From: a virus
IMG/VR virus record: IMGVR_UViG_3300007541_000158
Coordinates: 1-27,203 of that record
Length of the DNA stretch: 27,203 nucleotides
Reading direction: 5' to 3' (one strand)
Below the pieces are notes generated by a model. That model had not been told where the DNA came from, ran no database searches, and saw only the letters and a program-made list of their open reading frames with translations. Both the position numbers and the translations under genes were made by a program. Each line of letters opens with the position of its first letter. Position 1 is the first letter of the stretch. Below, one piece after another: positions 21,929-24,592 of the stretch.

Positions 21929-21937
21929 TATTTATTA
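21929..21937 (-). promoter_or_regulatory. T4-type late promoter after thyX (TAATAAATA)
   Basis: The minus strand reads TAATAAATA about 28 nt upstream of the TTG start of the 82 aa gene. The leading TAA is the thyX stop codon (21935-21937). It would add late expression to phoH and the replication operon. Confidence 0.65.
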
Positions 21938-22573
21938 CCAGTCCATTGCTTCTGCAATTACAGGAAACTGCCCTTTGAATACTTGTTTGCATTCATTAGC
22001 AATTTGCATGTGCTCTGCTTGAGTTCCATTGGCACTTCTAAGATCAATATAGTGCATCCAAGAACGCAGTGAGCCAGACATATAAATTCTGGTGGGAGTT
22101 GCTAAAGGAAGAACAAACCTAGCACACTCTTTTGCAACACCATGAGAAAGAAGTTCTTTATAAAGGTGCATACCATTAGCAAAGTGCTCTTGAATCTTTC
22201 CTTGAAGTTTGAGTTTTAGATATCCTTCCAAATCATCAGTAGAATTTTGACGATTCTTAGTATCCTGACGACGCAGATCAGGCACAGGAATATAATCAGA
22301 AATCAAACTGGTGTCTGCATACCTTTGAGAAAATTCCTGAAATGTAAAACTCCTATGTCGCAAAATTTGAGCTGCAATTCCTCTGGTAGTTTCAATCTCC
22401 AAAGTCATGAATGCCTGCTCAAAGATGCTCCAGTGCTGGTGTTTAATGCAATACTTGAGAAGACCAGCAAAGGAGTCATTCTCTTGGTTCTGGGGGTTGC
22501 TAACCCTTGCACAGTAAGCAATATGCTTTTCTGCATCAGGTGTCACACTAACTAGTTTTACAGTTTGCATCAT
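21935..22573 (-). CDS. thyX: FAD-dependent thymidylate synthase ThyX (212 aa)
   Basis: The protein carries the ThyX signature RHRSFTFQEFSQRY (RHR-X7-S) at about residues 72-85. Also present are HWSIFEQAFMTLEIETTRGI, AAQILRHR and the C-terminal ATPTRIYMSGSLRSWMHYID, RSANGTQAEHMQIANECKQV. ThyX makes dTMP from dUMP using FAD, NADPH and methylene-tetrahydrofolate, supplying thymidine for phage DNA. The length is normal (about 210-230 aa). The start has GAGGA 6 nt upstream and an ATGA overlap with the 67 aa gene. It belongs to the early operon driven from the promoter at 22962-22990. Confidence 0.95.
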   Translation of the reverse strand: MMQTVKLVSVTPDAEKHIAYCARVSNPQNQENDSFAGLLKYCIKHQHWSIFEQAFMTLEIETTRGIAAQILRHRSFTFQEFSQRYADTSLISDYIPVPDLRRQDTKNRQNSTDDLEGYLKLKLQGKIQEHFANGMHLYKELLSHGVAKECARFVLPLATPTRIYMSGSLRSWMHYIDLRSANGTQAEHMQIANECKQVFKGQFPVIAEAMDW

Positions 22574-22773
22574 AGTAGGTCCTCTTCAGATTCATTCCAG
22601 GATTCTTTTTCTTTCTTTCTAAGTTTCTTCAAATCTTTCATCATAGATTTGATTTCTTGATAGGCAGTTTCTGGAGACATTTTATCACCAATTTCAAGTC
22701 CAACAATATATTGAACTTTATCCCCAAATCTTGCCAGTGCTCTCTCAAAAGCAGTCAATTCTTCATACACCAT
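22570..22773 (-). CDS. Small helical hypothetical protein (67 aa)
   Basis: This 67 aa charged, helical protein starts MVYEELTAFERALARFGDKV, with a Lys-rich middle (EIKSMMKDLKKLRKKEKESW) and an acidic tail. It has stop/start overlaps with both neighbours (TGATG upstream, ATGA with thyX), a good sign of a real, coupled gene. Similar small genes next to thyX occur in cyanophages, but I know no function. Confidence 0.7.
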   Translation of the reverse strand: MVYEELTAFERALARFGDKVQYIVGLEIGDKMSPETAYQEIKSMMKDLKKLRKKEKESWNESEEDLL

Positions 22774-22940
22774 CAGTCATCCTCATCATAAAATACTTCA
22801 TCATAATCATTGATACAAGGAATAATTTCCTCATAATCATATTCTTGTAAAGGATTTTGTTCAAATAGCATTTCTTCTTTCAAAGTTTCAAGAAGAGATT
22901 CAAGATTATTGATAATTGCTTTGACCCTTTCTTTGTTCAT
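22773..22940 (-). CDS. Small acidic hypothetical protein (55 aa)
   Basis: It starts at MNKERVKAIINNLESLLETL (ATG 22940). A GTG five codons earlier (22955) lies inside the repeat promoter leader and is less likely. The N-terminal half is a helix and the C-terminal half is very acidic (EYDYEEIIPCINDYDEVFYD). It is the first gene behind repeat copy 1, whose last bases TTGGA give the ribosome site. It overlaps the 67 aa gene by TGATG. No family is recognised. Its acidity recalls DNA-mimic-type early proteins, which is only a guess. Confidence 0.65.
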   Translation of the reverse strand: MNKERVKAIINNLESLLETLKEEMLFEQNPLQEYDYEEIIPCINDYDEVFYDEDD

Positions 22941-22945
22941 CTTAT

Positions 22946-22991
22946 TCCAAGTCACAATAGTATTTTACACAAAAAAAGAGGGAGAGTCAAT
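22946..22991 (-). repeat. 46 bp direct repeat, copy 1 (terminator arm + promoter module)
   Basis: This is identical over 46 bases to 23810-23855 (period 864 bp). On the minus strand it reads: 3' arm of a terminator, seven T, sigma70 -10, leader, then TTGGA at the start of the next gene's ribosome site. It is followed by the 55 aa gene. The two copies flank the 260 aa gene. Confidence 0.95.
22962..22990 (-). promoter_or_regulatory. Sigma70-type early promoter in repeat copy 1
   Basis: -35 is TTGACT (22985-22990) and -10 is TAAAAT (22962-22967), 17 nt apart. The spacer is the terminator arm CTCCCTC, seven T and GTG. It drives the 55 aa, 67 aa and thyX genes. The -35 box overlaps the terminator stem of the upstream gene. 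Confidence 0.75.
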
Positions 22992-23005
22992 AACATCCCA
23001 CCCTC
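22971..23005 (-). terminator. Terminator of the 260 aa gene, overlapping the promoter
   Basis: On the minus strand GAGGGTGGG pairs with CTCTCCCTC (one mismatch and one G-U) around a 10 nt loop, followed by seven T. The 3' arm and T run belong to repeat copy 1, while the 5' arm is unique, so each copy has built its own stem. Confidence 0.75.
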
Positions 23006-23019
23006 AAATTATTACACAT

Positions 23020-23802
23020 TTATCGAAATAATATACCAAGTTTTCTTCTAAATTTTCTATATAAATCTTCAGATTTAAATTTGTGAGTTGCATGAAATTG
23101 CAATTTATTTAATCTATCATATTCCTTTTCATCAACATATTTAACTTCAGATCTATATGTCTTTCTATAAAATGGAATAATTAACATTATAGGTTCTTCT
23201 CTATCTATAACTTGATTTTCTACATCTATATCATTTATATTCATTTTATTTTTTATTTTATAGTTCCACTCAAAAAACCATGGCAAAGATAATGGAGATT
23301 TATCTGTATGAAAAATTCCTGTAGAAGTTGTGAATGAAGTATTTCTGTGCCATATTGGATTTGTAATTAGACAAGATACTCCAGGTTGTGTCTGAACTAT
23401 CCAAGGTGTACTGAATTTAAAAAAATTATTATATATTGGTGGATTTTTCATTCCATAGAATTGATCCATTCCACTAGAAGAAATTGATTGATTCAATGGA
23501 TTTTCCATCCAATTCACATACAATTCTCCATCATAATCTTCTCTGAAAATGAAAGATGACCAACTTGGAACAATATATCCAGTTTTTAAAAAATCTTGAA
23601 TTCCTATACAATTTGCCATACTATTGGATTTGGCATATTGTAGGTTTAAAATATTATTCTGGACTGCAGTAAATGGACATTTACTGCTATTGTTTTTAGG
23701 TAAATTTGAAAACCACTCTGGAAATTTTTTATAGGCTGGTAATGGTTCCGGAACTAAATCTTTGTAATAATTTGTAGTGGTAAAAGTTATTTTTAAAGAC
23801 AC
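23020..23802 (-). CDS. Phage DUF6065-like protein, single cargo gene between repeats (260 aa)
   Basis: The start is GTG at 23802 with GGAG 6 nt upstream. A TTG four codons earlier (23814) lies in the repeat. The layout resembles a phage family I know as DUF6065-like: PAYKKFPEWFSNLPKN, CIGIQDFLKTGYIVPSWSSF, a central FSTPWIVQTQPGVSCLITNP and STGIFHTDKSPLSLPWFFEW, then EPIMLIIPFYRKTYR. In relatives these blocks are KP.P.WF, C.P..D....GY.IP, P.GYS.LF..P, SG..DTD....P..FPF and P..QIIPF.R. The function is unknown, and a virion or host-modifying role is only guessed. The gene is more AT-rich and Asn/Ile/Lys/Tyr-rich than its neighbours, and the perfect flanking repeat suggests recent acquisition. 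Confidence 0.75.
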   Translation of the reverse strand: MSLKITFTTTNYYKDLVPEPLPAYKKFPEWFSNLPKNNSSKCPFTAVQNNILNLQYAKSNSMANCIGIQDFLKTGYIVPSWSSFIFREDYDGELYVNWMENPLNQSISSSGMDQFYGMKNPPIYNNFFKFSTPWIVQTQPGVSCLITNPIWHRNTSFTTSTGIFHTDKSPLSLPWFFEWNYKIKNKMNINDIDVENQVIDREEPIMLIIPFYRKTYRSEVKYVDEKEYDRLNKLQFHATHKFKSEDLYRKFRRKLGILFR

Positions 23803-23809
23803 ATACTTC

Positions 23810-23855
23810 TCCAAGTCACAATAGTATTTTACACAAAAAAAGAGGGAGAGTCAAT
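23810..23855 (-). repeat. 46 bp direct repeat, copy 2 (terminator arm + promoter module)
   Basis: This is identical to 22946-22991. It holds the 3' end of the terminator stem, seven T, promoter, leader and the first bases of the ribosome site of the 260 aa gene. The stop codon of the 51 aa gene (TGA at 23851-23853) lies inside the repeat's -35 box. Confidence 0.95.
23826..23854 (-). promoter_or_regulatory. Sigma70-type early promoter in repeat copy 2
   Basis: -35 is TTGACT (23849-23854) and -10 is TAAAAT (23826-23831), 17 nt apart, identical to copy 1. It drives the 260 aa gene. The -35 box forms the loop of the overlapping terminator hairpin and contains the TGA stop of the 51 aa gene. Confidence 0.75.
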
Positions 23856-23863
23856 CTCCCTCT
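23834..23863 (-). terminator. Terminator of the small-gene cluster, overlapping the promoter
   Basis: The minus strand forms a perfect 9 bp stem AGAGGGAGA / TCTCCCTCT with loop TTGAC, followed by seven T. The 5' arm is the last coding bases of the 51 aa gene, and the loop is part of the next promoter's -35 box. Termination and initiation signals share the same ~30 bp. Confidence 0.88.
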
Positions 23864-24006
23864 GATTTAAATAATTTTTCAAACCATTCCACAAGATGAA
23901 TACGATAACAGGACCAGTATTTACATCCTCTATATGTTAAAAGATAACAAGCAGGACCTCTATTGTCCTTATCCATATCATCATAGTGATAATGGTAATC
24001 TTCCAT
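23851..24006 (-). CDS. Small His/Tyr-rich protein with YRG motif (51 aa)
   Basis: This short ORF encodes MEDYHYHYDDMDKDNRGPAC, then YLLTYRGCKYWSCYRIHLVE and a charged tail (WFEKLFKSEGD). The LTYRG.KY motif resembles DUF4278, a small cyanobacterial/cyanophage family, as does the MSKVVYRG protein two genes upstream. Three cysteines and the HYHY cluster could bind metal, which is speculation. Its ATG shares a base with the stop of the 28 aa ORF (TAATG), and it ends in the terminator. Confidence 0.65.
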   Translation of the reverse strand: MEDYHYHYDDMDKDNRGPACYLLTYRGCKYWSCYRIHLVEWFEKLFKSEGD

Positions 24007-24520: not shown

Positions 24521-24556
24521 AGATGAACGACTACGTTCCGAGTCGGCTTACTTCCG

Positions 24557-24578
24557 TTTGCTATTTGGAAATAGCAAA
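24557..24578 (-). promoter_or_regulatory. Hairpin at the 5' end of the early transcript
   Basis: TTTGCTATTT and AAATAGCAAA form a perfect 10 bp inverted repeat with a 2 nt centre. It begins about 7 nt after the expected start of transcription from the promoter at 24593-24621. No T run follows, so it is more likely a 5' stabilising stem or regulatory element than a terminator. Promoter plus stem-loop is the PeSL layout described in T4-type phages. Confidence 0.7.
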
Positions 24579-24592
24579 TGAACGACAGGTCA

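Follow-up and report, generated by a model that had tools for sequence, protein, structure and literature searches.

A duplicated, predicted promoter-inside-terminator element flanks a single accessory gene at a variable locus of T4-like cyanophages

The window analysed here is the entire IMG/VR record IMGVR_UViG_3300007541_000158, a stretch of viral DNA of 27,203 nucleotides in which two copies of one short regulatory module lie within a block of small genes on the minus strand. Read on that strand, the order is a 51-aa gene upstream of the site (23851..24006), module copy A (23810..23855), a 260-aa gene with a GTG start, here called the cargo gene (23020..23802), module copy B (22946..22991), a 55-aa gene downstream of the site (22773..22940), a 67-aa gene, the conserved neighbour thyX (21935..22573) and phoH. 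An earlier reading of the letters alone (the sequence-only reading) had described a perfect duplication of 46 bp, and this was confirmed: 22946-22991 and 23810-23855 are identical at 46/46 bases, with a start-to-start distance of 864. A 32-nt core with up to three mismatches recovered only the two repeat copies within the window (0/100 shuffles), and a third copy is absent from it. An assembly artefact was ruled out by the near-identical contigs L003 and L304 from other metagenomes, which match at 99.9%; L003 has the two module copies, one of which differs by a single SNP, and L304 carries copy B. Scanning of viral contigs with the 3' part of the repeat located the exact 46-bp allele only at this site, in L003, L304, L224/L302 and L303, and a spread of the allele to other loci was therefore rejected.

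Both copies read ATTGACTCTCCCTCTTTTTTTGTGTAAAATACTATTGTGACTTGGA on the minus strand and consist of the terminator loop, the 3' arm and T-run, a predicted promoter with -35 TTGACT, 17 nt and -10 TAAAAT (promoter A, 23826..23854; promoter B, 22962..22990) and the start of a ribosome site. The layout is nested, with the -35 placed within the terminator loop and with the 3' arm and T-run forming the 17-nt spacer. The repeat does not reach the 5' arms, which differ between the two copies. For terminator hairpin A (23841..23863, minus strand, loop TTGAC) folding gave a perfect 9-bp stem of -14.8 kcal/mol; its 5' arm is encoded by the last codons of the 51-aa gene, and the TGA stop codon of that gene sits inside the TTGACT of promoter A. 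Terminator hairpin B (22978..23005, minus strand) is imperfect, with one mismatch and -10.6 kcal/mol, since the repeat stops short of its 5' arm GAGGGTGGG, which is not fully matched to the shared 3' arm. With stop codon, -35, terminator and promoter spacer overlapping on shared bases, the layout is an unusually compact regulatory design. Copy A is the predicted driver of the 260-aa gene.

That each copy combines terminator parts, a sigma70-type promoter and the first bases of a ribosome site had been proposed from the letters; the promoter-terminator part of this assignment finds support in the 17-nt spacing and in hairpin arms that covary. A free-gap pattern (TTGAC, 0-5, CCCTNTTTTTT, 2-6, TANAAT), which permits total lengths of 24-33, matched at least 120 stretches in viral contigs; among the matches listed, the 17-nt spacing (length 29) was present in 99 of 121 and length 28 in 18. 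A complementary 5' arm, which the pattern does not require, was found for 116 of the 121 matches listed versus 10% with shuffled upstream bases. Among 73 distinct modules from this site and its relatives, 64 had arms complementary at 7/7 positions, whereas re-pairing of the halves gave 17 on average and 27 at most. Kinship among the sequences inflates a test of this kind, although 22 different 3' arms take part in it. An Rfam search of the module returned 0 matches. Since the terminator and promoter parts share it, a single 50-bp stretch is a candidate for a dual role, in which the upstream transcript would end and the next one would start at the module. Early transcription of cyanophages is thought to use unmodified host polymerase and sigma70-like motifs (PMC2984593), which the promoter assignment fits. 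At empty loci (e.g. L153, L162 and L266) the short inverted repeat ACCTTTGTTGAGGT is frequent in the leader between the -10 and the ATG of the 55-aa gene and would fold the ribosome site into a hairpin right at the 5' end of the mRNA.

The cargo protein matches phrog_7084 with an E-value of 3e-31. The label DUF6065-like, under which the gene had first been described, was rejected, since the match to DUF6065 (Pfam PF19541) reached 13.3 bits (E 0.06) and lies below the gathering score of 26.6. The gene had also been called more AT-rich than its neighbours; its GC content of 27.2% is indeed low compared with 35.8% for the window, but the neighbouring 55-aa gene is equally low at 28.0%. The AlphaFold model of the cargo protein is of moderate confidence (pLDDT 66.8); Foldseek against the PDB gave no match with E under 0.1, and profile searching of PDB sequences yielded nothing credible either. 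Distant members of phrog_7084 are present in many haloarchaeal tailed viruses of the phages collection. Additionally, homologues of the 260-aa gene were seen by eye at other places, where a tryptophan-halogenase-like or a clamp-loader-like gene follows (L020 after 4756; L009 and L013 downstream of the gene).

The sequence-only reading had expected relatives with one module and without the 260-aa gene, and such relatives were found at base resolution. The sister contigs L224 and L303 carry a single module, 46/46 identical to that of the window, and lack the 260-aa gene; the outer flanks of both window copies are joined exactly at this module, and the 864-bp segment missing from the sisters (22992..23855, minus strand) corresponds to one module copy plus the cargo. 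On their two flanks L224 and L303 are 91.7-93.3% and 92.4% identical to the window, and the module is thus more conserved than the flanks, which diverge by 7-8%. For that reason the perfect identity of the repeat cannot date the event, and its use as a clock was rejected; the module is under constraint, so the identity could have outlasted an old event or be maintained by gene conversion. The sisters have furthermore lost most of the 51-aa gene while keeping its last 15 codons, i.e. the terminator 5' arm (L224 3895-4010, L303 1943-2058). Among the isolates, the site is empty in S-RSM4, S-WAM2 and S-H9-1. S-RIM4 has the 51-aa gene with its own module at the end of that gene, then a homologue of the 260-aa gene (46% identity) and talC, and both module and cargo are missing from S-H35, which is 96-97% identical to S-RIM4 on either side. 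The junctions between these two isolates fall inside the 51-aa gene and beyond the cargo and not at two modules; the exchange extends into the 51-aa gene, so that module and cargo differ together.

A survey covered 112 loci at which both neighbours have homologues; this number includes some overlapping retrievals from a single contig. About 55 distinct loci are empty, with a gap of 49-67 bp that holds the module alone, and 16 distinct other loci are filled with five kinds of cargo; different genes at the same place had likewise been anticipated. The five kinds are the 260-aa gene (with two modules in the window and L003, with one in L004), a 60-aa gene designated MHNL (11 loci), a 161-aa gene (L084 and copies) flanked by two different promoter modules, a 266-aa gene (L190) and a 144-aa gene (S-RIM32). 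At most filled sites a terminator hairpin lies on each side of the cargo. In the MHNL class the hairpin beside the 51-aa gene mostly carries TTAA instead of TTGAC and looks like a terminator without a promoter. In L144 (3270-4046) the 60-aa MHNL gene stands in tandem with the first part of a second gene, similar to the 266-aa one of L190; a hairpin precedes each, and the pair is possibly a stack of two cargoes. In about 12 further relatives (most of L005-L018), in which the 51-aa gene is absent, the 260-aa gene lies between a single module and the 55-aa gene, with a gap of 3-15 bp before the latter and no second module; two modules are thus not required for residence of this cargo.

In a ThyX tree of 83 rows the state of the site changes at least 19 times, a count taken from a quick tree of one short protein, to which crossovers falling between the site and thyX would add. 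Six changes are needed for the 260-aa state alone, three of which are forced by well-supported branches. Moreover, as many as four hairpins are found with one and the same 25-nt leader, and each of the two hairpin classes is combined with each of the two main leader types; such mixing is expected if crossovers fall within the element.

The anatomy of the element, its empty and filled states, their turnover and the mismatched arm are established at the level of sequence. The explanation considered probable is that an element resident in T4-like cyanophages, with a promoter inside a terminator, doubles as a recombination joint, and that the lineage of the window gained the 260-aa gene there. The element would reside between the 51-aa and 55-aa genes, with the end of the 51-aa gene encoding the terminator 5' arm, the -35 contained in the loop, and the 3' arm and T-run making up the 17-nt spacer, followed by the -10 and the ribosome site of the next gene. 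Because it is short, conserved and self-contained, it could serve as a joint at which an incoming gene with a similar hairpin would recombine, presumably through the phage's own machinery, with one crossover at the loop and the other at the -10/ribosome-site end. The gene would then be flanked by two modules, shielded from its neighbours on either side and provided with its own start. In the window this would have left the 260-aa gene between two identical resident modules and copy B as a recombinant, chimeric hairpin, in which a 5' arm of probably foreign origin is joined at the loop to the resident 3' arm.

Insertion of a gene together with a module at a pre-existing module, as the sequence-only reading proposed, agrees with the empty sisters joined at the module, but gain in the window lineage and loss by repeat recombination in L224 and L303 leave identical traces. 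Under loss, two modules would have enclosed the cargo already in the common ancestor of the window and these sisters, and a single repeat recombination would have removed it from the sisters, which would produce exactly their joined site. The presence of the 260-aa family at the locus in about 12 other relatives and the additional loss of most of the 51-aa gene in the sisters are in keeping with this; the emptiness of most relatives, the other 260-aa loci without a second module, the AT-richness of the cargo and the 5' arm of copy B, which fits as poorly as expected of an insertion joint, speak against it, although none of these points is decisive. The balance tips towards gain, because empty sites are common and the arm fits poorly, and loss is regarded as an unlikely but serious alternative. 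A smaller chance still is given to a stepwise origin, in which the cargo came first with one upstream module, as in L004, and the module alone was then copied before the 55-aa gene by duplication or gene conversion, giving that gene its own promoter. The relatives with module, 260-aa gene and 55-aa gene in direct succession would suit such an intermediate, but L224 and L303, with one module, no cargo and both outer flanks of the window, imply that cargo and one module differ together, and an unrelated 5' arm precedes copy B. That the two copies are ordinary regulatory sequences held alike by selection without recent common origin is highly improbable, for despite the strong conservation of the module at this site, even between sisters with divergent flanks, the identity covers bases past the -10 (ACTATTGTGACTTGGA) that vary freely among relatives, and the viral-contig scan found the exact allele only in the window's own group.

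Recombination at the resident element, the preferred explanation, recalls the promoter-early stem-loops (PeSLs) of T4-type phages, which were reportedly treated by Arbiol et al. in 2010 and Comeau et al. in 2014 and are said to have been described in RB49 and Phi1. As outlined in PMC4503421 and PMC3950731, PeSLs resemble the present element as composites of a terminator and a sigma70-type early promoter between small variable genes, and as points of gene gain, loss and exchange. Judged by its sequence, the element likewise appears to unite a promoter and a terminator stem-loop between genes, and insertion, deletion or replacement of genes between close relatives is seen here too (window and L003 versus L224 and L303; S-RIM4 versus S-H35; the tree). 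In contrast, the window module is nested, with the -35 in the loop and the T-run in the spacer, whereas the units of RB49 and Phi1 are mostly tandem, terminator then promoter; a scan with the same script gave 18 tandem units and three loose overlaps in each of these two genomes and 0 matches to the strict nested pattern. Standard PeSLs are expected in many copies per genome, densely placed in variable regions. Isolate genomes contain about one strict nested form each, mostly next to the 51-aa gene, as in S-RIM4, S-RSM4, S-WAM2 and S-H9-1, and no match occurs in the S-PM2 and S-RIM32 genomes; the count was made in isolate genomes, the window being a 27-kb fragment of a genome. A module scattered through the genome was therefore rejected for the strict form in isolates. 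Under looser criteria, one or two weaker nested units were seen in each of S-RIM4 and S-RSM4 (e.g. S-RIM4 35561, S-RSM4 51394). Of the mobile, PeSL-type cassette that had been suggested, the gene turnover at the motif was thus borne out, while the copy number and the tandem geometry were not. The element is PeSL-like in its apparent action, differs in geometry and number, and is not classed as a standard PeSL, a distinction drawn by our own scan of RB49 and Phi1 as the geometry standard.

PeSL-like motifs have also been proposed in the haloarchaeal virus HGTV-1, with a suggested role in aiding genome shuffling (PMC3950731), and halovirus HF2 has promoter-bearing intergenic repeats (PMC8707807). 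Promoter-bearing intergenic repeats in tailed viruses are a shared feature, but those of HGTV-1 and HF2 are archaeal and genome-wide. We know of no single-site comparison of empty and filled states for the haloviral repeats. The locus moreover resembles the hyperplastic regions of T4-like cyanophages, in which small variable genes lie between conserved ones (PMC2984593, PMC4503421). For S-PM2, PeSLs were considered unlikely to explain gene gain (PMC4503421); at the present locus, in contrast, one defined element marks the joint.

The site looks like a natural plug-in point at which such viruses gain and lose genes. Tentatively, with a chance somewhat below even, the nested element, usually single per genome, may serve T4-like cyanophages of both marine and freshwater habitats as a standing landing site, where hairpin-matched arrivals would be insulated from both neighbours, so that accessory genes could be swapped singly with the thyX-phoH genes undisturbed. 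One short element with empty and filled states makes the question of single-gene gain and loss in these phages testable in the laboratory, and both states are available at the same locus, among sister contigs and also in two cultured phages, S-RIM4 and S-H35.

Upstream of the block of small genes, at 24530-24586 on the minus strand of the window, a match to the glutamine riboswitch aptamer RF01739 was noted (31 bits versus a gathering score of 35, E 3e-4), and similar sequence was seen by eye upstream of the same block in L224 and S-H9-1.
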